This document shows positions 41,411-55,925 of a DNA stretch of 64,000 nucleotides, piece after piece. Location of the stretch: NCBI GenBank assembly GCA_031277805.1, contig JAITLR010000022.1:124001-188000 (forward strand). Direction: 5' to 3'. This stretch comes from Comamonas sp. (GTDB lineage Bacteria; Pseudomonadota; Gammaproteobacteria; Burkholderiales; Burkholderiaceae_C). Made by a program: the position numbers and the translations under genes. The notes below the pieces were generated by a model. That model was not told the origin of the DNA. It ran no database searches and worked only from the letters and a program-made list of their open reading frames with translations. Numbering within the stretch: position 1 is the first letter of the stretch; each line of letters opens with the position of its first letter.

Positions 41411-42181
41411 ATGAATTCCCGTGCCGCCCCCTCCCGCTCCGCTGCCAGGTCCGGCCGCGACGTACCCGTCGCGCTGTACCAGCAGGTCAAAGACCATGTG
41501 CTGCAGAAGATCGGCAACGGTTCGTTGACCGCCGGCGCACGCGTGCCCTCCGAGCAGGAACTGGTGCAGGAGTTCGGCGTGGCGCGCATGACGGTCAACC
41601 GCGCGCTGCGCGAGCTGGCAGAGCAGGGCGTGATCGTGCGCGTGGCCGGTGTCGGCTCCTTCGTGGCCGAGGAAAAGCCCCAGTCCACGCTGCTGCGCAT
41701 CGCCAATATCGGCGAGGAGATCACGCAGCGCGGGCACGACCACCGCTTCGAGCTCATCAGCATGCGCCGCGCCTCGGCCTCGCCCGAGGTGGCGGCGGCG
41801 CTGGACCTGGCGGTGGGCGCTTCGGTCTTCCACCTGCAGGGCGTGCACTTCGAGAACGAGGTGCCGGTGCAGCTCGAGGACCGCTACGTGAATCCGCGCC
41901 TGGTGCCGGACTTCATGGAACAGGATTTCTCGGCCGTCCAGCCCTCGGTCTATCTGGTGCGCAACGTACAGTACGACCAGATCGAGCATGTGGTCGACGC
42001 CATCCTGCCCACCGCCGAGCAGGCGCACTGGCTGCAGATGGCGGCCGACCAGCCCTGCCTGATGCTGACACGCCGCACCTGGCTGCGCGGCGTCCCCATT
42101 ACCTGGGTGCACTGCGTGCATCCGGGCATGCGCTACCGGCTCGGTAGCCGCTTCCGCACGGACCCGGTACACGGCGGCTGA
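41411..42181 (+). CDS. hutC: HutC-family histidine utilisation repressor (HutC paralogue 2)
   Basis: 'QEFGVARMTVNRALRELAEQGVIVRVAGVGSFVAEEKPQSTLLRIANIGEEI'. Confidence 0.93.
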   Translation: MNSRAAPSRSAARSGRDVPVALYQQVKDHVLQKIGNGSLTAGARVPSEQELVQEFGVARMTVNRALRELAEQGVIVRVAGVGSFVAEEKPQSTLLRIANIGEEITQRGHDHRFELISMRRASASPEVAAALDLAVGASVFHLQGVHFENEVPVQLEDRYVNPRLVPDFMEQDFSAVQPSVYLVRNVQYDQIEHVVDAILPTAEQAHWLQMAADQPCLMLTRRTWLRGVPITWVHCVHPGMRYRLGSRFRTDPVHGG

Positions 42182-42225: not shown

Positions 42226-42237
42226 CTGTATAGACAG
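42226..42237. promoter_or_regulatory. HutC-type operator candidate upstream of hutH
   Basis: CTGTATAGACAG near-palindrome ending 8 bp before the hutH ATG. Confidence 0.55.
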
Positions 42238-42245
42238 GTATAGCC

Positions 42246-43805
42246 ATGAACACCATCACCACTCCAGGAATCTCTTCTTCCAAGCTGGAACTGTGTCCCG
42301 GTCAGGTCACGCTGGCCCAGTTGCGTGCCATTCAAGGCGGCGGTGTGCAGCTGAGCATGGCGGCTTCGGCCTACGAAGCCATGCGTGCCGCCCAGGCCCA
42401 TGTGCAGCACATCGTGGACGAGGACCAGGTGGTCTATGGCATCAACACCGGCTTTGGCAAGCTGGCCTCGACCAAGATCGCTCACGACCGCCTGGCCGAA
42501 CTGCAGCGCAACCTGGTGCTATCGCACAGCGTGGGCACGGGCGAGCCCCTACCTGACCATGTGGTGCGCCTGATCCTGGCCACCAAGGCTGTGAGCCTGG
42601 CGCGCGGCCATTCGGGCGCCCGGTCGGCCCTGGTCGACGCGTTGCTGGCCCTGGCCAATGCCGACGTGCTGCCCGTGATTCCGGCCAAGGGCTCGGTAGG
42701 CGCCTCGGGCGACCTGGCACCGTTGTCCCACCTGGCCTGTGTGCTGATCGGCGAAGGCCAGGCCAAGGTCGACGGCAAAGTGGTCTCGGGCCGTGAAGCC
42801 ATGAAGCACATCGGTCTCGAGCCTTTTGTGCTCGGCCCCAAGGAAGGCCTGGCCCTGCTCAACGGCACGCAGGTGTCGACTTCGCTGGCGCTGACTGGTC
42901 TGTTCCAGGCCGAAAGCGTGCTGGCCGCGGGCCTGGTGGCCGGCTGCCTGACGCTCGAAGCCATCCAGGGTTCGATCAAGCCTTTCGATGCCCGCATCCA
43001 TGAGGCGCGCGGCCAACTGGGCCAGATCGCCGTGGCCGCCGCCGTGCGCGAACTGCTCGACGGCAGCGCCATCGACCCCTCGCACCCCAACTGCGGCCGC
43101 GTGCAGGACCCGTACTCCATCCGTTGCGTGCCCCAGGTCATGGGCGCCTGCCTGGACAACCTCGGCCACGCGGCGCGCGTGCTGGCCACCGAGGCCAATG
43201 CGGCCTCCGACAACCCGCTGGTGTTCGACAACGGCGATGTGATCTCGGGCGGCAACTTCCATGCCGAACCCGTGGCCTTCGCGGCCGACATCATCGCACT
43301 GGCAATTGCCGAGATCGGCGCCATCTCCGAGCGCCGCATGGCTCTGCTGCTGGACACCGGCCTGTCGCGCCTGCCGGCCTTCCTGATCGAGGACAGCGGC
43401 GTGAACTCAGGCTTCATGATTGCCCAGGTCACGGCCGCCGCGCTGGCCGCTGAAAACCAGTGCCTGGCCAACCCCAGCAGCGTGACCAGCCTGCCCACCT
43501 CGGCCAACCAGGAGGACCATGTCTCAATGGCCACCTACGGTGCGCGCCGCCTGGCCGACATGGCCAGCAACACAGCCGTGATCGTGGGCGTTGAAGCCAT
43601 GGCCGCCGCGCAGGGCATGGATTTCGACCGCCGGCTCAAGAGCTCGGCACTGATGGAAGAGCAGTACGCGCTGATCCGCAGCAAGGTGGCCTATCTGGAC
43701 AAGGACCGCTATCTGGCCCCCGACATCGAGACCATGCGCCTGTGGGCCCTGGAAACCGACTGGCCAGCCGCGCTGCAGCGCATCCTGCCGAGCACGGTAC
43801 GCTGA
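42246..43805 (+). CDS. hutH: Histidine ammonia-lyase
   Basis: MIO motif 'GSVGASGDLAPLSHLACVLIGEG', 'YGINTGFGKLAS', 'QEDHVSMA'. Confidence 0.97.
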   Translation: MNTITTPGISSSKLELCPGQVTLAQLRAIQGGGVQLSMAASAYEAMRAAQAHVQHIVDEDQVVYGINTGFGKLASTKIAHDRLAELQRNLVLSHSVGTGEPLPDHVVRLILATKAVSLARGHSGARSALVDALLALANADVLPVIPAKGSVGASGDLAPLSHLACVLIGEGQAKVDGKVVSGREAMKHIGLEPFVLGPKEGLALLNGTQVSTSLALTGLFQAESVLAAGLVAGCLTLEAIQGSIKPFDARIHEARGQLGQIAVAAAVRELLDGSAIDPSHPNCGRVQDPYSIRCVPQVMGACLDNLGHAARVLATEANAASDNPLVFDNGDVISGGNFHAEPVAFAADIIALAIAEIGAISERRMALLLDTGLSRLPAFLIEDSGVNSGFMIAQVTAAALAAENQCLANPSSVTSLPTSANQEDHVSMATYGARRLADMASNTAVIVGVEAMAAAQGMDFDRRLKSSALMEEQYALIRSKVAYLDKDRYLAPDIETMRLWALETDWPAALQRILPSTVR

Positions 43806-43850: not shown

Positions 43851-43952
43851 GCCAGGGGCGCCGAGCAAGAGCCTCAGCCGGCCGCGCCGCCTCGCAGCGA
43901 GGGCGCCGTCCCCCTTGGGGGAAGTGGCGCAGCCGCTCAGGGGGGTCAAAAA
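43851..43952 (-). repeat. Dispersed intergenic repeat family A, copy 4
   Basis: Minus strand CCCCCCTGAGCGGCTGCGCCACTTCCCCCAAGGGGGACGGCGCCCTCGCTGCGAGGCGGCGCGGCCGGCTGAGGCTCTTGCTCGGCGCCCCTGGCTTGAGGCGCTGG. Confidence 0.8.
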
Positions 43953-44671
43953 CTTCCGGTGAACTTGTAGCGGGAGGCCGGATGCCACAGCGCCGACACC
44001 GAAGCCACCTGGCCCTGGGAGCGCGTGGCACGGCGCAGCACCAGGCAGGGCTCGCCGACCTCCATATGCAGCAGCTCGGCCACTTCAGTGCCGGGCATGC
44101 TGGCCTCGATGGAGAACTGCACGCCCTGCAGTGGCGCCACGCGCGTCAGATAGGCGTTGGGCGTCTGGCTGGCGAAATCCTGGGTCAGGTAGTCGGGCGC
44201 GACCGCAGGATTGACGTAGCGATCCTCGACCTGGATGGGCACGTCGTTCTCGAAGTGCACGACCACCGAGTGGAACAGGGTCTGGGCGGTGGACAGCTCG
44301 AACTGCCGCAGCAGGGCCGCATCGGCGCGGCAGCGCTCGAGCTTTTGCAGCTCGCCGCGGTGCCTGTGGCCGCGCGCCGCGATCTCGTCGGCGATGTTGC
44401 GCAGTTGGACCAGGGTGGACTGGTATTTCTGCTGGGCCACGAAAGTGCCCGAGCCCTGCACGCGCGTCAGCGTCTGCTCGTCGCTGAGCTCGCGCAGTGC
44501 GCGGTTGACCGTCATGCGCGCTACCTCGAACTGCCTGGCCAGGGCCGCTTCGCTGGGAATGGCATCGCCTTCCTGCCAGGTGCCGCTGTGGATCTGCTGC
44601 AGCACATAGTCTTTGATACGTTGGAACGCCGGGACGGCCGCCTGGGAGGTCGCACGAATGGGGCTGGGCAT
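43946..44671 (-). CDS. hutC: HutC-family regulator (HutC paralogue 3), divergent from the NCS1-hutU operon
   Basis: 'RQFEVARMTVNRALRELSDEQTLTRVQGSGTFVAQQKYQSTLVQLRNIADEI'. Confidence 0.93.
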   Translation of the reverse strand: MPSPIRATSQAAVPAFQRIKDYVLQQIHSGTWQEGDAIPSEAALARQFEVARMTVNRALRELSDEQTLTRVQGSGTFVAQQKYQSTLVQLRNIADEIAARGHRHRGELQKLERCRADAALLRQFELSTAQTLFHSVVVHFENDVPIQVEDRYVNPAVAPDYLTQDFASQTPNAYLTRVAPLQGVQFSIEASMPGTEVAELLHMEVGEPCLVLRRATRSQGQVASVSALWHPASRYKFTGSF

Positions 44672-44694
44672 AGGGTTTGTTCGGGTCAAAAAAC

Positions 44695-44780
44695 CTGTAT
44701 AGACGATTGACGGTGCGGGGAGTAAAACACAGAATTGTTCTATACAACTTTAGATGAATTACCTAGAAGTTGTATGCACA
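44695..44780. promoter_or_regulatory. Cluster of three HutC-like operator candidates in the divergent hutC3/NCS1 intergenic region
   Basis: CTGTATAGACG (44695-44705), TTGTTCTATACAA (44735-44747), TTGTATGCACA (44770-44780). Confidence 0.5.
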
Positions 44781-44817: not shown

Positions 44818-46284
44818 ATGAGCATTGAGACAAACGCGTCGGTCGCGACCGGCCCCATCGAGACAAGAACCATCGACATGGTTCCCGAGCGTGAGCGCCA
44901 CGGCTCTCCCTCCAGCCAGTTCACCCTCTGGTTCGGCGCCAACATGCAGATCACGGCCGTGGTCGACGGCGCCCTGGCCGTGGTCTTCGGTGCCGAGGCC
45001 ATGACGGCCATCCTCGGCCTGCTGATAGGCAACATCCTCGGCGGCATCGTCATGGCGCTGCACTCGGCCCAGGGCCCGCGCCTGGGCCTGCCGCAGATGA
45101 TCTCCAGCCGCGTGCAGTTCGGCGTCAAGGGCGCGGCCCTGCCGCTGCTGCTGGTGATCCTCATGTACCTGGGCTTTGCGGCCACGGGCACGGTGCTCTC
45201 GGGCCAGGCCATCAACCTGATGTTCGGCTTCACCAGCCCCGCCGCAGGCATTGCCATCTTCGGTGCGCTCACGGCCCTGGTCGCCATCGTCGGCTACAGG
45301 CTGATCCATGTGGTGGGCCGCATCTCCACCGTGATCGGCATCCTGGGCTTTGGCTATCTGGCCTGGCAACTGTGCCACCAGTACGACGTGGTCAGTGCCT
45401 TCGGCCAGAAGCCTTTCACCTGGACCAGCTTTCTGACGGCCATGGCCCTGTCGGCCGGCTGGCAGATGACTTTTGCGCCCTATGTGGCCGACTATTCGCG
45501 CTATCTGCCGAGCAAGACCTCGACGGCAGCCACTTTTTGGACCACTTTCGGCGGCAGCGTGATCAGCGCCCAGCTGGCCATGATCTTCGGCGTGCTGGTG
45601 GCCGCCCTTGGCGGCAACTTCATCAAGAACCAGGTCGGCTTCCTGGGCGAGCTCGCGGGCCCGCTGGCCGTGGTGATCTATCTGGTCATCGTGACCGGCA
45701 AGCTCACGGTGAACTGCCTCAACGCTTATGGCGGCGTCATGACCATGCTGACCACGGTCAGCGCCTTCAACGACAAAAAGCAGTTCTCGCCCGCCACCCG
45801 CCTGGCCTACATCCTGGGCTTTGTGCTGCTCACGGTGCTGGTGGCCCTGCTGGCCAGCTCCAACTTCCTGGCCACCTTCAAGAACTTCGTGCTGCTGCTG
45901 CTCACGGTGTTCGTGCCCTGGAGCGCCGTCAACCTCGTGGACTACTACCTGATCTCCAAGGAGAAGGTGGACATCCCCGCGCTCTACAACAGCCAGGGCC
46001 GCTACGGCGCCTACAACGGCGTGGCCCTGTTCAGCTATGTGCTGGGCATCGTCGTGCAGATCCCGTTCATCAACCAGGCCATGTACGAAGGTCCGCTGGC
46101 CAAGGCCATGGGCGGCGCCGACATCTCCTGGATCGTGAGCCTGATCGTCACCTCGCTCGTCTACTACCCGCTGGCCAAGAAGACCATGAAGGTCCCCGAC
46201 CAGATGATTTACCCGGCCGATCAGGCCGCCAACGCTCCCAACAGCAGCAATGCTGCCTACCTGAACACCGCATCCGCCGCCTGA
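44818..46284 (+). CDS. NCS1-family nucleobase/cytosine permease-like transporter, probable histidine or urocanate permease
   Basis: CodB-like TM protein, '[21 protein letters not shown]', '[15 protein letters not shown]'; in operon with hutU. Confidence 0.88.
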
Positions 46285-46330
46285 GCCACAGTGCCGAGCT
46301 TTTCACCGTTTTCTCATGAAGGATCAGACC

Positions 46331-48049
46331 ATGAACGCCAACGACGCCATCCTCCAAGCCGCAGCCGATCCCCGCTACGACGCCAGCCGCGTCATCCGCG
46401 CTCCCCATGGCAGCACGCTGCATTGCAAGAACTGGCTGGCCGAGGCCGCCTACCGCATGCTGCAGAACAACCTGGATCCCGATGTGGCCGAGAACCCCAA
46501 GGCCCTGGTGGTCTACGGCGGTATCGGCCGCGCGGCGCGCAACTGGGAATGCTTTGACGAGATCCTGGCACAGCTCAAGAAGCTGGAGGCCGACGAGTCG
46601 CTGCTGATCCAGTCGGGCAAGCCCGTGGGCGTGTTCAAGACCCATCCCGACGCACCGCGCGTGCTACTGGCCAACTCCAACCTGGTGCCCAAGTGGGCCA
46701 CCTGGGAGAAGTTCAACGAACTGGACCAGAAGGGCCTGTTCATGTACGGCCAGATGACGGCCGGCAGCTGGATCTATATCGGCAGCCAGGGCATTGTGCA
46801 AGGCACCTTCGAGACCTTTGTCGAAGCCGGCCGCCAGCACTACAACAACGACCTGACCGGCAAGTGGATTCTCACGGCCGGCCTGGGCGGCATGGGCGGC
46901 GCCCAGCCCCTGGCCGCCACCTTGGCCGGCGCCTGCTCGCTGAACATCGAGTGCAAGCAGAGCAGCATCGACTTCCGCCTGCGCACCCGCTATGTGGACA
47001 AGCAGGCCAAGGACATCGACGACGCACTGGCCCTGATCAAGCACCACACAGAAAAGGGCGAGGCCGTCTCCATCGCCCTGCTGGGCAATGCGGCCGAAAT
47101 CCTGCCCGAGCTGGTCAAGCGCGCCAAGGCTGGCGGCCCTCGCCCCGACATCGTGACCGACCAGACCTCGGCCCACGACCTGGTTAACGGCTACCTGCCC
47201 GTGGGCTGGACCGTGGCGCAGTGGGAAGCCGCTGCCGCCGACCCCAGCCAGCAAGCCCGTCTTACCAAGGCCGCGGCCAAGGGCTGCGCCCAGCACGTGC
47301 AGGCCATGCTGGACTTCCAGGCCATGGGCATCCCCACGGTGGACTACGGCAACAACATCCGCCAGGTGGCCTTCGACGAAGGCGTGAAGAACGCCTTCGA
47401 CTTCCCCGGCTTCGTGCCCGCCTACATCCGCCCGCTGTTCTGCGAGGGCAAGGGCCCGTTCCGCTGGGTGGCGCTGTCGGGCGATCCCGAGGACATCTAC
47501 AAGACCGACGCCAAGATCAAGGAGCTGTTCCCCGAGAACAAGCACACCCACCGCTGGCTGGACATGGCGCGTGAGCGCATCGCCTTCCAGGGCCTGCCCT
47601 CGCGCATCTGCTGGCTGGGCCTGGGCGAGCGCCACAAGGCGGCCCTGGCCTTCAACGAGATGGTCAAGAACGGCGAACTCAAGGCGCCCATCGTCATCGG
47701 CCGCGACCACCTGGACTGCGGCTCCGTGGCCAGCCCCAACCGCGAAACCGAAGCCATGAAGGACGGCACGGACGCCGTCTCCGACTGGCCGCTGCTCAAC
47801 GCCCTGCTCAACACGGCGGGCGGCGCCACCTGGGTCAGCCTGCACCACGGCGGTGGCGTGGGCATGGGCTACTCCCAGCACGCGGGCGTGGTCATCGTGG
47901 CCGACGGCACCGACGAAGCCGCCAAGCGCCTGGGCCGCGTACTGTGGAACGACCCGGCCACGGGCGTGATGCGCCATGCGGATGCAGGCTACGAAATTGC
48001 CGTGGAAGCCTCCAAGCGCCATGGCCTGAACCTGCCGATGATTAAGTAA
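46331..48049 (+). CDS. hutU: Urocanate hydratase
   Basis: '[17 protein letters not shown]', '[21 protein letters not shown]', '[23 protein letters not shown]'. Confidence 0.97.
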
Positions 48050-48051
48050 TC

Positions 48052-48160
48052 TCCCCCTGAGCGGCTGCGCCGCTTCCCCCTCTCTCTTCGGGAGGGGGAT
48101 GGCACCCTCGCTGCGAGGCGGCTCTTGCTCGGTGCCCCTGAGCTGGGCCGCGCCAGTTTT
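48052..48160 (+). repeat. Dispersed intergenic repeat family A, copy 5
   Basis: CCCCCTGAGCGGCTGCGCCGCTTCCCCCTCTCTCTTCGGGAGGGGGATGGCACCCTCGCTGCGAGGCGGCTCTTGCTCGGTGCCCCTGAGCTGGGCCGCGCCAG. Confidence 0.85.
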
Positions 48161-48179
48161 TACGGATATCCACCTCTTC

Positions 48180-48755
48180 ATGCAACGCTTTGACCTGAAC
48201 CAGATTGCGCCCAGCCCGTGGAAGAACGGGGGCGGCAGCACGCGCGAGATTGCCTGCTGGCCGCAGGGCGCGGGCATGGACAGCTTTGGCTGGCGCGTGA
48301 GCGTGGCCACGATCGCACAGGCCGGTCCGTTTTCGGCATTTCCGGGCATTGACCGGCAGATCATGCTGCTGGACGGCGACGGGGTGCAGCTCGCCAGCGC
48401 TGCGGCCGGCATCAACCATGCGCTGCAGCAGCGCTGGCAGCCGTTTGCATTTTCTGGCGATGCGGCGCTGGACTGCAGCCTGCTGGGCGGCACTTCCACC
48501 GATTTCAACGTCATGACGCGGCGCAGCCAGTGGTCGGCCGAGGTCGGCATCCATGAGGTCGAGGTACAGCCCGGCCGCAGCGCCGCGGGCCTGTGCCTGG
48601 TGCTGCAGAGCGGCTTTGCCCAGGGCCAGACCCTGCTGCAGGCCGGCCAGGGCCTGTGGTGGGATGCTGCCGAGGATGCCGAGCCTTTGCTGCCCTGCGA
48701 TGCACACAGCCGACTGGTGCTGGTGAGCCTGGAGCAGGCTACGCAAGCCGCATAG
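48180..48755 (+). CDS. hutD: HutD/Ves family protein
   Basis: 'SPWKNGGGSTREIACWPQGAGMDSFGWRVSVATIAQAGPFSAFPGIDRQIMLLDGDGV'. Confidence 0.92.
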   Translation: MQRFDLNQIAPSPWKNGGGSTREIACWPQGAGMDSFGWRVSVATIAQAGPFSAFPGIDRQIMLLDGDGVQLASAAAGINHALQQRWQPFAFSGDAALDCSLLGGTSTDFNVMTRRSQWSAEVGIHEVEVQPGRSAAGLCLVLQSGFAQGQTLLQAGQGLWWDAAEDAEPLLPCDAHSRLVLVSLEQATQAA

Positions 48756-48883: not shown

Positions 48884-50137
48884 ATGACGCAAGCCGCAAC
48901 GCCTCATCCTTCCGCCGACGGGCGCTGGCTAGCCCTGCGTCTGGCGCCCGAGCTGTTCGCGGCCGATGTGCCTGTCGCCGATGGGCAGTCGGCCTGCATC
49001 GTGGTGCAGCAGGGCCGCATCGTCTGGGTGGGCCCGCAGGACCAGGTTCCCGCCGCCTACCAGGCGCTGCCCGCGCATGACGGCGGCGCCCGCCTGGCCA
49101 CGCCGGGCCTGATTGATTGCCATACCCATCTGGTCTATGGCGGCGAGCGTGCCAACGAATTCGCCATGCGTCTGGCCGGCGCCAGCTACGAAGAAGTGGC
49201 GCGTGCGGGCGGCGGCATAGTCTCCAGCGTCAAGGCCACGCGCGAAGCTTCCGAGGAAGAGTTGATCGCCCAGGCCCTGCCGCGCCTGGACCAGCTGCTG
49301 GCCGAAGGCGTGACCGCCATCGAGATCAAATCGGGCTACGGCCTGTCGCTGGAGCATGAGCGCAAGCAGCTGCGCGTGGCCAGGCACCTCGCCGAGCTGC
49401 GCGGCGTGACCGTGCGCACCACCTTCCTTGGCGCCCATGCGCTGCCGCCCGAGTACGCGGGCCGCAGCCAGGATTACATAGACCTAGTCTGCCGCGACAT
49501 CATGCCCGCGCTGGCCGCCGAAGGCCTGATCGACGCCGTGGACGTGTTCTGCGAGCGCATCGCCTTTTCGCTGGCCGAGACCGAGCAGGTCTTCCAGGCC
49601 GCACAGGCGCTGGGCCTTCCCGTGAAGCTGCATGCCGAGCAGCTGTCGAATATGGAGGGGGCTGCCCTCGCTGCACGCTATGGTGCTCTGTCCTGCGACC
49701 ATATCGAGCATCTGTCCGAGAACGGCATCGCCGCCATGCGGGATGCAGGCACCGTGGCAGTGCTGCTGCCCGGCGCCTTCTACACGCTGCGCGACACAAA
49801 AGTGCCGCCTATCGACGGTTTGCGTGCCGCCAAGGTTCCGATGGCCGTTTCCACAGATCACAATCCAGGTACCTCCCCGGCTTTGAGCCTGCTGCTCATG
49901 GCCAATATGGCTTGCACGCTGTTCAGGCTCACGGTGCCCGAGGCCCTGGCCGGCATTACCCGCCATGCGGCGCTGGCCCTGGGCCTGCAGCACGAGCAGG
50001 GCCTGATCGCCGCGGGCCGGCCCGCCAACTTCGTGCTGTGGCCCGTGCGCCATGCGGCCGAGCTGGCCTACTGGTTCGGCAACAAGCCCGATTGCACCGT
50101 GGTGCGCCAGGGCCGGATTGCCCGGGTCGGCGGCTGA
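48884..50137 (+). CDS. hutI: Imidazolonepropionase
   Basis: '[35 protein letters not shown]', '[12 protein letters not shown]'. Confidence 0.97.
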
Positions 50138-50163: not shown

Positions 50164-51558
50164 ATGTCACACGAACAATTTCTCGCTGAACTGATCTCCA
50201 CCCTGGGCGCCGATGTGGCGCAGCACGGCGCCGACGTGCCCGAGCGCTACCACACGGACTGGAGCGGCCAGCCGCCGCAGCGCCCCCTGGCCCTGGTGCG
50301 CCCGCGCAGCACGCAGGAGGTCAGTGCGGTGCTGCGCCTGTGCACGGAGCACAAGGTGGCCGTCGTGCCCCAGGGCGGACTCACGGGCCTGGCCGGCGCC
50401 GCCGTGCCCAGCCAGGGCGCCATCGCCCTGTCACTGGAGCGCATGAACACCATAGAGAACACCGACATCCGCGCCGGCCTGATGCAGGCGCAGGCCGGCG
50501 TCACGCTGCAGGCCGTGCAGGAAGCGGCCGTGGCCGCAGGCATGGTTTTCGGCGTGGATCTGGGTGCGCGCGGCAGCTGCCAGATCGGCGGCAATGTCGC
50601 CACCAATGCGGGCGGCAACGGCGTGCTGCAGCACGGCATGATGCGCGAGCAGGTGCTGGGTCTGGAGGTGGTGCTGGCCGACGGCACGGTGCTGCCCATG
50701 CTGCGCCCCATGATCAAGAACAACACGGGCTACGACCTCAAGCAGTTCTTCATCGGCGCCGAGGGCACGCTGGGCGTGGTCACGCGCGTGCTGCTGCGTC
50801 TGCGCCCCGCGCCCCAGGCCACGGCCACCACGCTGGTGGCCATGCCCGATTTCGATGCGGCCCTGGCCGTACTCAAGCGCATGCAATCGCGCTTCGGCAA
50901 CAGCGTGGCGGCCTACGAGCTGATGTGGGACAGCTTTGTGCAGGCTTCGCTGTCCTGGCTCAAGCTCAGCGCGCCGTTCGCCGAACGCCATCCGCTGCTG
51001 GCCCTGATCAATGTGGACGGCAAGAACGAATCCCAGCTGCAGGGCGACGTGCAGCAGGTGCTGGAAGAGGCCATGGAGGCCGGTGAGGTGCTGGACGCCA
51101 TCGTCGCCCAGTCCGTGGCTCAGGCGCAGACGCTGTGGAAGCTGCGCGAGGCGCCGGCCGAGCTCAACAACAACATGCACCCGGCTATCAACTTCGACGT
51201 GAGCCTGCCCCAGGCCGACATCGGCCGCTTCGCCGAGGCCTGCGAAGCCGCGTTCAGCGCGCGCTGGCCGGCCAAACATGCGCTGTACTTCGGCCATGTG
51301 GGCGACGGCAATCTGCACGTCTCGGTGGACGGCAAGACCGTGGGTGGCACACACGAGGCCATCGAGGCAGTGGAAGCCGAGCTCTACCACCTGGTGGGCG
51401 AATTCCAGGGCAGCGTCTCGGCCGAGCACGGCATAGGCCTGCACAAAAAGCCCTATCTGCAAGCCAGCCGCACGCAAGAGGAGCTGGCCGTGATGCGCTC
51501 CATCAAGCAGGCGCTGGACCCTTTGGGCCTGATGAATCCAGGAAAGGTTTTCGACTGA
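50164..51558 (+). CDS. FAD-linked 2-hydroxyacid oxidase/dehydrogenase (GlcD/Dld-like)
   Basis: FAD-binding_4 'VVPQGGLTGLAGAAVPSQGAIALSLERMN', 'NAGGNGVLQHGMMREQVLGLEVVLADG', C-terminal 'YFGHVGDGNLHVSV', 'GSVSAEHGIGLHKKPYL'. Confidence 0.93.
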   Translation: MSHEQFLAELISTLGADVAQHGADVPERYHTDWSGQPPQRPLALVRPRSTQEVSAVLRLCTEHKVAVVPQGGLTGLAGAAVPSQGAIALSLERMNTIENTDIRAGLMQAQAGVTLQAVQEAAVAAGMVFGVDLGARGSCQIGGNVATNAGGNGVLQHGMMREQVLGLEVVLADGTVLPMLRPMIKNNTGYDLKQFFIGAEGTLGVVTRVLLRLRPAPQATATTLVAMPDFDAALAVLKRMQSRFGNSVAAYELMWDSFVQASLSWLKLSAPFAERHPLLALINVDGKNESQLQGDVQQVLEEAMEAGEVLDAIVAQSVAQAQTLWKLREAPAELNNNMHPAINFDVSLPQADIGRFAEACEAAFSARWPAKHALYFGHVGDGNLHVSVDGKTVGGTHEAIEAVEAELYHLVGEFQGSVSAEHGIGLHKKPYLQASRTQEELAVMRSIKQALDPLGLMNPGKVFD

Positions 51559-52712
51559 TGACTGACTCTCTGATCGCCACGCTGGCGCGCCCCGAAGCGC
51601 GTCCTTTGCCCGCCTACAACGCAGGCCTGTCCAACGAGGCCGTGCGCGCGCGCTACGGCGTCACCGACATCGCGCGCCTGGCCAGCAACGAGAACCCGTT
51701 CGGCGTCAGCCCCGCCGTACGCCAGGCCCTGGCCGGGCTCGCGGGCGAGGTGGGCAACTATCCCGACGCCAACTGCACGGCGCTGCGCCAGGCGATTGCC
51801 GAGCGCAGCGGCATGGCCGCCGACCGCCTGGTGTTCGGCAACGGCTCGGAAGACCTGATCAAGATCCTCTGCGAGGTGTTTCTCTCGCCCGGCGATCTGG
51901 TCGTGACCCAGCGCCCCGTGTTCGGCCTGCACGAGATCTATCCGAAGATGATGGGCGCGCAGGTGCAGTTGCTCGAACTGAACGCCGAGCTGGGCTTCGA
52001 CATCGACGCCTGGTGCGCGGCCCTGGCCCGTGCGCCCAAGATCGCCTTCCTGCCCAACCCGTCCAACCCCGTGGGCTGCATGATGGACGTGGCCGCTTTT
52101 GCGCGCGTGCTGGAGGCCACGCCCGACAGCACGGTTCTGGTGGTGGACGAGGCCTATTACGAATACGCGCTGCATGACGATGCCTACCCCGACGTACTGG
52201 CCATACTGGCCGCCCGCCAGGGGCCGTGGATCGTGCTGCGCACCTTCTCCAAGGCCTGGGGCCTGGCCGGCCTGCGCGTGGGCTATGGCATGGCCGACAG
52301 TGCCGCTTTCGTGCACCTGCTGGACAAGGTGCGTTCGCCCTTCAACGTGAACCTGGCGGCCCAGCGTGCGGCGCTGGCGGCCTGGAGCGATCCCACGCAC
52401 ATGCGCGCCGGCGTGGCGACCACGGTGGCGCTGCGCGAGGCGCTGCGCCACGAGCTGCTGGCCCTGGCCGCGCCCGGCGGTCCGCTGCAGGGCCTGCGCA
52501 TCGCCCCCTCGGTGGCCAATTTCCTGTTCCTCGACATAGGCCGGCCCAACGGTCCCGTGACCGAGGCGCTGCTGCGCCAGGGTGTGATCATCAAGCCCTG
52601 GAAGGAGCCAGGTTTCGAGCATTTCCTGCGCGTCTCCATCGGTACCGAGCAGAACAACGCGCGCTTTGTTCAGGCCTTGCTCGTGGCGATGGCCGAGCCC
52701 GTTGCCGCCTGA
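51558..52712 (+). CDS. hisC: HisC-like (histidinol-phosphate) aminotransferase
   Basis: 'LASNENPFGVSPAV', 'FLPNPSNPVG', 'VDEAYYEYA', 'LRTFSKAWGLAGLRVGYG'; start overlaps upstream stop (TGATG). Confidence 0.9.
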   Translation: MTDSLIATLARPEARPLPAYNAGLSNEAVRARYGVTDIARLASNENPFGVSPAVRQALAGLAGEVGNYPDANCTALRQAIAERSGMAADRLVFGNGSEDLIKILCEVFLSPGDLVVTQRPVFGLHEIYPKMMGAQVQLLELNAELGFDIDAWCAALARAPKIAFLPNPSNPVGCMMDVAAFARVLEATPDSTVLVVDEAYYEYALHDDAYPDVLAILAARQGPWIVLRTFSKAWGLAGLRVGYGMADSAAFVHLLDKVRSPFNVNLAAQRAALAAWSDPTHMRAGVATTVALREALRHELLALAAPGGPLQGLRIAPSVANFLFLDIGRPNGPVTEALLRQGVIIKPWKEPGFEHFLRVSIGTEQNNARFVQALLVAMAEPVAA

Positions 52713-52741: not shown

Positions 52742-54178
52742 ATGACCGCACCCTCTCTCGCCCCACGTACCTTGTTTGCTGCAGATGCTTTGCTGCCCGC
52801 AGGGTGGGCGCGCAATGTCCTGCTGAGCTGGGACGAAAACGGCCGCCTGACCGAGGTGCTTACCGATGTGGATCTGCAAAGCGGCGAGGCTGGTGAGGCC
52901 GAGGATGCGATCCGCGCCGCAGGCCCTCTGATTCCCGGCATGCCCAATCTGCACTCGCACGCCTTCCAGCGCGCGTTCGGCGGGCTGACCGAGTTCCGCG
53001 GCCAGGCGCAGGACAGCTTCTGGAGCTGGCGCAACCTGATGTACGGCTTTGCCAACCGCATGACGCCCGAGGCGCTGGAAGCGATCGCGACCTGGCTGTA
53101 TCTGGAGATGCTGGAAGCCGGCTACACCTCGGTCTGCGAATTCCACTACGTGCACCACGACGTGGGCGGCAAGCCCTATGCCGACGATGCCACGCTGTCG
53201 CTGGCCCTGCTGCGCGCAGCGCAGAAGACCGGCATTGCCATGACTCTGCTGCCGGTGCTCTACCAGACCAGCGGCTTCGGCGGCAAGCCGCCGCGCGAAG
53301 ACCAGGCGCGCTTCATCCGCAGCACGGACAATATGCTCTCTTTGTTGCAGCGTCTGGCGCCCGCCACACAGGGCCAGAACGCTGTTCTGGGCCTGGCCCC
53401 GCACTCGCTGCGCGCCGTGCCGCCGGACAGCCTGCAGGCGGCCGTGGCCGGCCTGCACGCCATGCTGCCCAAGGCTCCGGTGCACATCCATATCGCAGAG
53501 CAGACCCAGGAAGTCGATGACTGCCTGGCCTGGAGCGGCCAGCGCCCCGTGCAATGGCTGATGAACCATGCGGCGGTCGACGCGCGCTGGTGCCTGATCC
53601 ATGCCACCCACATGACGCCCGAGGAATACGCGGGCGCCGCCAGGAGCGGCGCTGTGGCCGGCATCTGCCCCACGACCGAGGCCAATCTGGGCGACGGCAT
53701 CTTCGACATGCCGTTGTGGCTGAAGAACGGCGGCCGCTGGGGTGTGGGCTCGGATAGCCACGCCACGGTGAACGCGGCCGAGGAGCTGCTGATGCTCGAA
53801 TACAGCCAGCGCCTGGACCTGCGCCAGCGCAATGTGCTGGGCGGCGGGTTGCAGCCCCAGGTGGCGACGGCCATGACGCTGCAGGCCGTCGCCGGCGGCG
53901 CCCAGGCCTCGGGCCGCGTGGCACAGGGAGGCATGGCGGGTCTCGTTGTGGGCCAGCAGGCCGATTTCGTGGTGCTGGATGAAGAGCATGTGGCTCTGGC
54001 CGGTCTGCCGGCAGACAGCGCCCACGCAGGCCATGTATTCGCCAGCCATCGCACTTCGGCGATTGCCGACGTCTGGGTGGGTGGCCGCCAGCGCGTGAGC
54101 CAGGGCCGCCACAACGGTCACGAAGTCGCCAAGCACGCATTCATCCAGGCGCGCAGCCAGCTGCTACAGTCCGCTTGA
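52742..54178 (+). CDS. hutF: Formimidoylglutamate deiminase
   Basis: 'PGMPNLHSHAFQRAFGGLTEFRG', 'DSFWSWRNLMY', 'GSDSHATVNAAEELLMLEYSQRL'. Confidence 0.95.
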   Translation: MTAPSLAPRTLFAADALLPAGWARNVLLSWDENGRLTEVLTDVDLQSGEAGEAEDAIRAAGPLIPGMPNLHSHAFQRAFGGLTEFRGQAQDSFWSWRNLMYGFANRMTPEALEAIATWLYLEMLEAGYTSVCEFHYVHHDVGGKPYADDATLSLALLRAAQKTGIAMTLLPVLYQTSGFGGKPPREDQARFIRSTDNMLSLLQRLAPATQGQNAVLGLAPHSLRAVPPDSLQAAVAGLHAMLPKAPVHIHIAEQTQEVDDCLAWSGQRPVQWLMNHAAVDARWCLIHATHMTPEEYAGAARSGAVAGICPTTEANLGDGIFDMPLWLKNGGRWGVGSDSHATVNAAEELLMLEYSQRLDLRQRNVLGGGLQPQVATAMTLQAVAGGAQASGRVAQGGMAGLVVGQQADFVVLDEEHVALAGLPADSAHAGHVFASHRTSAIADVWVGGRQRVSQGRHNGHEVAKHAFIQARSQLLQSA

Positions 54179-54288: not shown

Positions 54289-55104
54289 ATGAGCCAATCC
54301 ATCCCCCCCTTCGTTTTCCACCAGGGCACGGCACCGCTGCTGATTTCCATGCCCCATACCGGCACCCATGTGCCGGCCGACATCGCTGCCAAGCTCACGC
54401 CCGAGGGCCGCGAAGTCCACGACACGGACTGGCACATGCCCGCGCTCTATGACTTCGCCAAGGCGCTGGGCGCCTCCATCCTCGTGGCCACGCATTCGCG
54501 CTATGTGATCGACCTCAACCGTCCTCCAGACGGCGCCAGCCTCTATCCGGGCCAGAGCGTCACGGGCCTGTGCCCCGTAGACACTTTCGACGACACGCCG
54601 CTGTATGCCAGCAAGGCGGACGAGCCAGACGACGCCGAGATCGCACGCCGCCGCGAGGCCTGGTGGCAGCCCTACCACGGCCAGCTGCGCGCCGAGCTGG
54701 ACCGCATCAAGAGCGTGCACGGCACGGCCATGCTGTGGGATGCACACAGCATCCGTTCGGTGCTGCCGCGCTTCTTCGAAGGCAAGCTGCCCGACCTGAA
54801 CCTGGGCACGGCCGACGGCAAGAGCTGCGACCCGGCGCTGGCCCAGCAGCTGCTGGACATCGCCAGGCAGGCGCCCGAACACACCAGCGTGCTCAATGGC
54901 CGCTTCAAGGGCGGCTACATCACGCGCAACTACGGCCAGCCCGAGCAGGGCTTCCACGCCGTGCAGCTGGAAATGACGCAGTCCAGCTACATGCAGGAGC
55001 ATATGCCCTTCGACTATCTGCCCGAAGTCGCCGCGCGCATCCAGCCCACCATGCAGCGCATGCTGCAGGCCATGCTGGCTTTCGCGCACCCGCGCAAGGC
55101 TTGA
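54289..55104 (+). CDS. hutG: N-formylglutamate deformylase
   Basis: 'LISMPHTGTHVPADIAAKLTPEG', 'DLNRPPDGASLYPGQ', 'WDAHSIRSVLPRFFEGKLPDLNLGT'. Confidence 0.96.
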   Translation: MSQSIPPFVFHQGTAPLLISMPHTGTHVPADIAAKLTPEGREVHDTDWHMPALYDFAKALGASILVATHSRYVIDLNRPPDGASLYPGQSVTGLCPVDTFDDTPLYASKADEPDDAEIARRREAWWQPYHGQLRAELDRIKSVHGTAMLWDAHSIRSVLPRFFEGKLPDLNLGTADGKSCDPALAQQLLDIARQAPEHTSVLNGRFKGGYITRNYGQPEQGFHAVQLEMTQSSYMQEHMPFDYLPEVAARIQPTMQRMLQAMLAFAHPRKA

Positions 55105-55121
55105 GCCGCAAGGGGGCGATC

Positions 55122-55736
55122 ATGACTTCCCCTTTGCTGACCGCCCCAGTCCGCGCCCTTGAAGCGGTGGACGGAAATGGATATTTCCAAAAATGGAGGT
55201 GCAAAAAAATCAAAATATTGGTTGCTGCAATATTTTGTTTTTCATGCGCCCTATCTACCGCTCAAACAGAATTCGATTCCATTGAGTTTGGTGATATTTT
55301 TTTGAACAATAAGTCCTTGTACACAAAATTCAACCATCTCAAAAATATCATCAGCGACAAAGACAACCGAGCAAAGGCTTATCCATCAAAAGATATAAAT
55401 ATTCCTTTCGTGGAATTCAATGCCAATGAGGTGGTGTACAACGTAGCATCCGAGCATATCGTTTACAACTATTCAGAAGAGCGGCCGAACGATATTTTCG
55501 TCACCTACGTGCAACCCAGTAAAGATTTCAAAATAAATTTGGGTGGCAACCTTTTTTTGAGAAAAGGTATCAACGTATCTTCATTGAAGATGGCATATCC
55601 CAAGTCTTATAATATGCATTTAACCCATCCTGAAAACAACTTCAGACTGGTGGTAAAAAAGAATCATCAATCTGCTTTTCTGGACCTTGTCTTTAAAGAC
55701 AATCTTTTTCAGGAAATGTACCTGACAACGCAATAG
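55122..55736 (+). CDS. Hypothetical protein in an AT-rich segment, probable signal peptide
   Basis: ORF with 'KIKILVAAIFCFSCALSTAQ' signal-like segment; base composition much more AT-rich than its surroundings. Confidence 0.55.
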   Translation: MTSPLLTAPVRALEAVDGNGYFQKWRCKKIKILVAAIFCFSCALSTAQTEFDSIEFGDIFLNNKSLYTKFNHLKNIISDKDNRAKAYPSKDINIPFVEFNANEVVYNVASEHIVYNYSEERPNDIFVTYVQPSKDFKINLGGNLFLRKGINVSSLKMAYPKSYNMHLTHPENNFRLVVKKNHQSAFLDLVFKDNLFQEMYLTTQ

Positions 55737-55925
55737 GTTTTTCATTCGCAACCGACCCCGACCCCGACCAAGTGGAGTCAACTGCTGACTTGTCTGTTTT
55801 TTGCAAATCCTCTTTGCACAAGCCCCGCTTTTGGGGCTGTCCAGGCAGTTCAAGTGCACCGCCTGAAAAATGGGGCGTTCGCAAACGCTTGCCTCCCAGT
55901 AACATGGCGCGTAACTTCCCGCACC

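Follow-up and report, generated by a model that had tools for sequence, protein, structure and literature searches.

A stretch of 64,000 nucleotides (nt) from a Comamonas sp. genome (assembly GCA_031277805.1, contig JAITLR010000022.1, positions 124,001 to 188,000; hereafter the window) carries a hut cluster in which two genes lie between hutI and hutF, all on the plus strand (Table 1). The upstream gene encodes a flavin adenine dinucleotide (FAD)-dependent 2-hydroxyacid dehydrogenase (hereafter OX) and the downstream gene a HisC-like class I/II aminotransferase (hereafter AT). The TGA stop codon of OX (51556–51558) and the ATG of AT overlap in one base, the A of TGATG; 26 nt separate the end of hutI at 50137 from OX and 29 nt separate AT from hutF, and neither promoter-like sites nor same-strand terminator-like sites were found between 48700 and 55300. 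Both genes belong to a unit with the order NCS1 permease-hutU-hutD-hutI-OX-AT-hutF-hutG, of which the permease gene is the first. HutC, HutH, HutU, HutI, HutF and HutG all scored above their NCBIfam cut-offs and HutD above its Pfam cut-off, which identifies the cluster as a hut operon. Coordinates, domains and the TGATG overlap agreed with a first-pass annotation of this DNA, which had proposed that imidazolyl-lactate is oxidised to imidazolyl-pyruvate and transaminated to histidine for consumption by HutH or, alternatively, that the aminotransferase gene is a biosynthetic hisC displaced into the operon.

OX contains domains PF01565 (FAD_binding_4; 129.6 bits) and PF02913 (FAD-oxidase_C; 177 bits), and its nearest relatives of solved structure are 3pm9 and human D-2-hydroxyglutarate dehydrogenase (D-2-HGDH; 6lpn, 285.7 bits). 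In the human enzyme, Arg386, His434, His441, Glu475 and His476 bind the metal, the alpha-carboxylate and the hydroxyl, while the side-chain pocket is made of Thr390, Lys401, Tyr432 and Asn443, with Lys401 forming a salt bridge to the distal carboxylate (PMC7801405). An alignment showed that equivalents of the first five residues are kept in 49 of 49 OX proteins; together with both domains, they place OX in the FAD-dependent D-2-hydroxyacid dehydrogenase subfamily. By contrast, the four pocket positions are occupied by Ala, Asn, Phe and either Ser or Thr in the hut-linked OX of Burkholderiales. The protein of the window has Asn at the Lys401 position and Ser at the Asn443 position, so that both binders of the C5 carboxylate are lost, whereas an OX paralogue in the same genome (L015:3694-5229, minus strand) retains Lys and Asn. 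With its catalytic set intact and Lys401 lost, OX is, as judged from these residues, a 2-hydroxyacid dehydrogenase with a roomy, polar and uncharged pocket. OX has its two-domain architecture in common with D-2-HGDH, LDHD and GlcD, together with every residue of subsite A (Arg, two metal-binding His, Glu and the base His); beyond its differences from D-2-HGDH, the pocket of OX lacks the large hydrophobic residue found in LDHD and GlcD. Function as a D-2-hydroxyglutarate dehydrogenase was rejected on the pocket residues, and function as a GlcD glycolate oxidase on these residues and on a low score with the GlcD model TIGR00387 (277 bits, about 290 under the cut-off of 567.9); no GlcE or GlcF partner was found in the hut cluster of the window. 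Profile searches returned FAD-binding domains and no NAD(P) domain in OX, which does not place it under EC 1.1.1.111. Because LDHD and D-2-HGDH are selective for D-isomers (PMC10589216, PMC7801405), the D-isomer is the default expectation for OX, which by this analogy is more likely to be an enzyme for D- than for L-imidazolyl-lactate.

AT matched PF00155 (181 bits) and NF003496/PRK05166 (586.6 bits, cut-off 540), and with the hisC model TIGR01141 it reached 264.2 bits, short of the cut-off of 276.55. The first-pass annotation had suggested looking for a second hisC in the his biosynthetic operon, and one is present: on a different contig of the same genome, a hisC (G000:C7:192461-193528; 287.9 bits with TIGR01141) is followed by hisB, hisH and hisA, and its product is 29% identical to AT, which is hence not the sole copy. 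When 94 proteins were placed in a maximum-likelihood tree, AT grouped with beta-, gamma- and alphaproteobacterial sequences in a clade of 70, separated from HisC with 99/98 support; some HisC branches, in the deepest rows, were long and the deep order within HisC is unsure, the AT/HisC split itself being supported. The closest relatives of AT in the tree came from a Comamonas metagenome-assembled genome and from C. terrae. The pyridoxal 5'-phosphate (PLP)-binding lysine, Asp197, Asn170, Tyr200, Arg240 and Arg358 are present in 57–58 of 58 hut-linked AT proteins and, by mapping, would have the corresponding roles (PLP lysine, substrate-binding arginine and so on). Fold class, these catalytic residues and membership of an imidazole-binding family are common to AT and HisC, and the folds of both AT and OX are fixed by sequence relatives with solved structures. 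Glu98, Leu124 and Phe262 are invariant in the 58 hut-linked proteins, the corresponding residues of E. coli HisC being Asp, Met and Tyr; these are the only three positions separating the AT clade from E. coli HisC, and Phe at 262 is common to Pseudomonas HisC. Residues of HspAT/ArAT (PMC4703992), considered as proof of an amino-acid (carboxylate) substrate for AT, were discarded as not discriminating because Phe and Lys occupy the Tyr127 and Arg337 positions, respectively, in the HisC of the same genome too. A previously proposed histidine transaminase gene was attributed to HisC since it is located in the his operon, and histidine transaminase is treated as an orphan activity (PMC4084501); AT shows the opposite context, hut and not his. 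On these grounds AT is proposed as a candidate histidine:2-oxoglutarate (imidazolyl-pyruvate) transaminase, EC 2.6.1.38.

To what extent the pair is linked to hut was assessed across genomes. Searching GTDB genomes with an alignment of AT alone gave 57 loci, nearly all of them in hut clusters and most with OX immediately 5' of AT. The neighbourhood is not accidental: the pair recurs in hut in Comamonas, Delftia, Acidovorax, Variovorax, Pseudorhodoferax, Hylemonella, Xenophilus and others, including both Comamonas testosteroni and Delftia acidovorans. It lies between hutI and hutF in Comamonas, Delftia, Acidovorax and Hylemonella and 3' of hutG in Variovorax, Xenophilus, Pseudorhodoferax and Xylophilus, and these two positions indicate that OX-AT moves as a unit yet stays in hut. 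When 57 AT-clade loci of at least 13 kb were compared with 18 control loci from the HisC clade, each about 20 kb long, hut enzymes were present in 50 of the former and none of the latter, and a flavin 2-hydroxyacid dehydrogenase in 44/57 and 0/18, respectively; the Fisher p-value for hut linkage was 5e-12, for loci that are related, not independent, and that were gathered by similarity to AT. In wider class searches the AT clade was rare, appearing in 2 of 321 and 3 of 338 genomes at the thresholds used. The locus of C. testosteroni NFYY023 holds a HutC-type regulator (TIGR02018, 282.9 bits, cut-off 220), OX, AT and HutG only. In one locus (L016:156-1492, genome G004) OX is frameshifted within an otherwise intact OX-AT-hutF arrangement, possibly by a sequencing error, and in Alicycliphilus a second, distant HisC-like aminotransferase (L067:511-1674; 29% identity to AT) lies between hutH and hutU.

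In some lineages AT keeps its place while its partner belongs to a different family. The Serratia AT gene overlaps by one base with the next gene, which takes the place of OX and encodes an LldD-like flavin mononucleotide (FMN)-dependent 2-hydroxyacid dehydrogenase of an L-specific family (FMN_dh; PF01070, 442.7 bits); both lie 3' of an ATP-binding cassette (ABC) transporter, with HutF, HutD, HutC, HutI and HutG close by. The components of this transporter are 68, 72 and 81% identical to those of the ABC transporter directly 5' of hutC in the window, and identities among the Serratia, window and enterobacterial plasmid transporters range from 68 to 88%. Plasmids of Klebsiella, E. coli and Enterobacter carry a complete hut cluster whose last genes encode AT, an FMN-dependent alpha-hydroxyacid oxidase and an iron-containing alcohol dehydrogenase, and some plasmids retain only this end. 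L138 (NZ_LR890294.1), L139 and about 60 enterobacterial plasmid records carry the complete or truncated form, with AT annotated as hisC; the hut cluster of L139 adjoins a mercury resistance transposon. These plasmid clusters share with the window the AT clade signature, the ABC transporter, the full set of hut enzymes and HutC-box-like sites, and differ in the LldD-like dehydrogenase and the alcohol dehydrogenase that follows it. In Acetobacter, HutH is followed by FMN_dh and, separately, AT by a GlcD-type dehydrogenase (31% identity to OX) and HutD. That AT stays in hut while its partner swaps between two unrelated families is hard to explain except by a reaction converting a 2-hydroxy acid into a 2-oxo acid, and the presence of HutH beside AT implies that the 2-oxo acid made by OX or FMN_dh should be imidazolyl-pyruvate. 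This natural replacement of a D-type by an L-type hydroxyacid dehydrogenase, with the transaminase kept, is the strongest evidence for the pathway.

Sites resembling the HutC box were searched for in the same loci. One TGTNTANACA-like box was present 5' of hutH in every sampled Burkholderiales locus with a complete operon, and 33 such sites were found in the long related loci against 2.06 expected by base composition. Boxes also lie directly 5' of AT-OX in Acetobacter (position 9909 in L069 and L070), 5' of AT in S. meliloti pSymA and 5' of the plasmid operon ABC-hutH-hutU-AT-FMN_dh; no perfect box was seen in the NFYY023 locus. In the window, the unit with OX and AT is preceded only by three imperfect sites (44696–44780), each of which is conserved in part in C. 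testosteroni and C. terrae. It is proposed that the OX-AT unit would be under HutC control with the other hut genes, and the ABC transporter upstream of hutC, whose close orthologues accompany AT in Serratia and on enterobacterial plasmids, is likely to belong to the predicted hut regulon.

Together, OX and AT probably constitute a module through which imidazolyl-lactate would enter the hut pathway. OX would oxidise imidazolyl-lactate, most likely the D-isomer, to imidazolyl-pyruvate via FAD; AT would transaminate imidazolyl-pyruvate with glutamate to L-histidine; HutH would convert this histidine to urocanate; and HutU, HutI, HutF and HutG would take urocanate to glutamate and formate, the glutamate being able to repay the amino donor of AT. 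In this scheme we infer which substrate and which isomer OX takes, the acceptor of its electrons, the direction in which AT works, the binding of HutC and the roles of the transporters. The route is that put forward in the first-pass annotation, and genomic context, phylogeny, catalytic residues, HutC-box-like operators and the dehydrogenase swaps all speak for it. Imidazole-lactate is the hydroxy-acid cousin of histidine and is often reported in human and animal metabolomics; the findings suggest that gut and environmental bacteria are able to use it.

The chemistry itself has precedents. Degradation of imidazolyl-lactate was described by Coote and Hassall (1969, 1973) in Pseudomonas testosteroni and P. 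acidovorans, now Comamonas testosteroni and Delftia acidovorans, the title of the 1969 work naming an NADP oxidoreductase and that of 1973 imidazolyl-L-lactate (both as quoted in PMC6567437 and PMC9157411). To the extent that it is quoted, that pathway (EC 2.6.1.38 and EC 1.1.1.111) likewise runs from imidazolyl-lactate through imidazolyl-pyruvate and histidine into hut, in the same species that carry OX-AT, and is known from biochemistry, with no gene tied to it as far as found. Going by these quotations, the first-pass proposal is to be corrected on two points: the biochemistry was already known in these organisms, and the OX family is D-specific while the classical work concerned the L-isomer and NADP. 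No paper joining these enzymes into this route was found in the open-access literature searched, itself incomplete. The gene assignment (notably for EC 2.6.1.38), the dedicated transaminase clade and the interchangeability of D- and L-type dehydrogenases may be new, and they provide specific candidate genes for a known pathway in the species of the classical work.

Relatives of the pair outside complete hut operons were also surveyed. In alphaproteobacteria and Roseateles, AT occurs with a VanA-type Rieske demethylase, a reductase and hydrolases and, in one case, with formaldehyde-detoxification genes. Six loci (L107, L109, L113, L114, L140 and L142) carry AT, mostly with a GlcD-type dehydrogenase, beside a VanA-like Rieske oxygenase, its reductase, DUF2817/aspartoacylase-like hydrolases and ABC transporters, L142 being the one with formaldehyde-detoxification genes; catabolism of methylated or acylated histidine is possible there. 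Three others (L110, L111 and L144) combine HutC, a divergent HutH (57–59% identity), OX, AT, an amino-acid-type ABC transporter and an isopenicillin-N-synthase-like 2-oxoglutarate (2OG)-Fe(II) dioxygenase, with HutU, HutI, HutF and HutG not nearby.

Several observations weigh against the proposed entry module. NF003496 labels AT, above its cut-off, as a histidinol-phosphate transaminase. Thirteen of the 57 long AT loci, mainly from Variovorax and Giesbergeria, have neither OX nor FMN_dh nearby, and of those OX-less genomes that were searched, most lack a relative of OX at more than 48% identity; in Variovorax CF313 (G365) a second AT adjoins an OX (L047). In alphaproteobacteria (about 43% identity), AT and OX adjoin Rieske demethylase genes with no HutH. 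Finally, going by the titles, the classical enzyme was an NADP oxidoreductase and the substrate of 1973 the L-isomer, which contrasts with an FAD enzyme from a D-specific family; the discrepancy suggests that OX serves the D-isomer and another enzyme the L-isomer. The latter may be an FMN or NADP enzyme, and four FMN_dh genes are present elsewhere in the genome of the window.

These observations bear on four other explanations. The Rieske-linked relatives are what would be expected if the real substrate were a decorated imidazole compound, such as histidine or imidazolyl-lactate bearing an N-methyl or acyl group, unmodified imidazolyl-lactate being only an intermediate or side substrate: the distant loci couple the pair to VanA-type oxygenases with their reductase, to formaldehyde-detoxification genes, and to aspartoacylase/DUF2817 hydrolases or 2OG-Fe(II) dioxygenases, and plasmid pLM20P5 combines separate hut, 'D-lactate dehydrogenase', 'histidinol-phosphate aminotransferase' and 'vanillate' modules (PMC4447125), its AT relative and GlcD-type dehydrogenase being adjacent. 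For the window this is unlikely, as no such genes occur in its hut operon and in the Comamonas, Delftia and Acidovorax loci that were sampled, hutI and hutF directly flank the pair. Loci with AT and no OX, as in Variovorax and Giesbergeria, would fit a catabolic AT that turns histidine into imidazolyl-pyruvate as an overflow or side route, with OX recovering the resulting imidazolyl-lactate, and transaminases are reversible; that HutH of the same operon removes histidine directly, and that NFYY023 keeps OX and AT by a HutC-type regulator and HutG while the other hut enzymes are missing, makes such a direction distinctly improbable.

The relationship of OX to D-2-HGDH, and the glutamate released by hut, raise the case of another 2-hydroxy acid formed when hut is active, for instance D-2-hydroxyglutarate, with AT as a general aminotransferase. 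Here the loss of the residues for the C5 carboxylate in the hut-linked OX of Burkholderiales, their retention in the other paralogue of the genome and the replacement of OX by an L-type FMN enzyme beside an unchanged AT, which would make no sense for D-2-hydroxyglutarate, leave the idea very unlikely. The displaced biosynthetic hisC of the first-pass annotation fares worst and is rejected as extremely improbable: for it speaks the NF003496 score, but AT misses the TIGR01141 cut-off that the hisB-hisH-hisA-linked locus reaches, it lies in a clade apart from HisC, none of the 18 HisC control loci is near hut, and a biosynthetic gene would be wasteful in a catabolic operon.

Beyond the proposed entry of imidazolyl-lactate, the AT clade may serve further substrates. 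We tentatively consider, as a possibility short of a likelihood, that it is a dedicated, mobile histidine-transaminase hub with exchangeable front ends, which would feed many histidine-derived 2-hydroxy acids, methylated and acylated ones included, into hut and which plasmids would have spread to Klebsiella and E. coli. Besides the D-specific FAD and the L-specific FMN enzymes, such front ends would include Rieske demethylases combined with formaldehyde detoxification, as well as dioxygenases and acyl hydrolases, all of these in alphaproteobacteria and some Burkholderiales. The findings also suggest that 'hisC' is the wrong label for many genes of hut operons and enterobacterial plasmids.

Table 1. 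Features of the hut cluster in the window (positions are those of the window; aa, amino acids).
Feature	Coordinates	Strand	Details
OX, FAD-dependent 2-hydroxyacid dehydrogenase (VAO/PCMH family, D-2-hydroxyacid subfamily)	50164..51558	+	464 aa; PF01565 + PF02913
AT, HisC-like class I/II aminotransferase	51558..52712	+	384 aa; PF00155, NF003496
hutI, imidazolonepropionase	48884..50137	+	TIGR01224 471 bits, cut-off 298
hutF, formimidoylglutamate deiminase	~52742..54178	+	NF006684 689 bits, cut-off 525
hutG, N-formylglutamate deformylase	54289..55104	+	TIGR02017 366 bits, cut-off 279
hutD	48099..48755	+	PF05962 172.5 bits
hutU, urocanate hydratase	46316..48049	+	TIGR01228 950.5 bits
NCS1-family permease, putative imidazole-compound transporter	44818..46284	+	PF02133 185.5 bits
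Imperfect HutC-box-like sites (three)	44696..44780	.	at 44696, ~44736 and 44771; 5' of the NCS1 permease unit
Second HutC-like GntR/UTRA regulator	43946..44689	-	PF07702 + PF00392
hutH, histidine ammonia-lyase	42246..43805	+	TIGR01225 666 bits, cut-off 539
HutC-box-like palindrome TGTATAGACA	42227..42236	.	perfect or near-perfect; 5' of hutH
hutC, repressor	41387..42181	+	TIGR02018 303.5 bits, cut-off 220
ABC transporter, candidate importer	38721..41384	+	directly 5' of hutC; NMT1/SsuA-like binding protein
ABC transporter, binding protein	38721..39728	+	
ABC transporter, permease	39697..40605	+	
ABC transporter, ATPase	~40602..41384	+	
HutC-box-like palindrome TGTATATACA	38641..38650	.	perfect; 5' of the ABC transporter

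Two further features were noted. The second HutC-like GntR/UTRA regulator also occurs in C. testosteroni and C. terrae. Downstream of the operon, between hutG and an AlkB-like gene, an island of low GC content (55100–55900; 47% against about 66%) holds an AT-rich open reading frame for a putative secreted protein.

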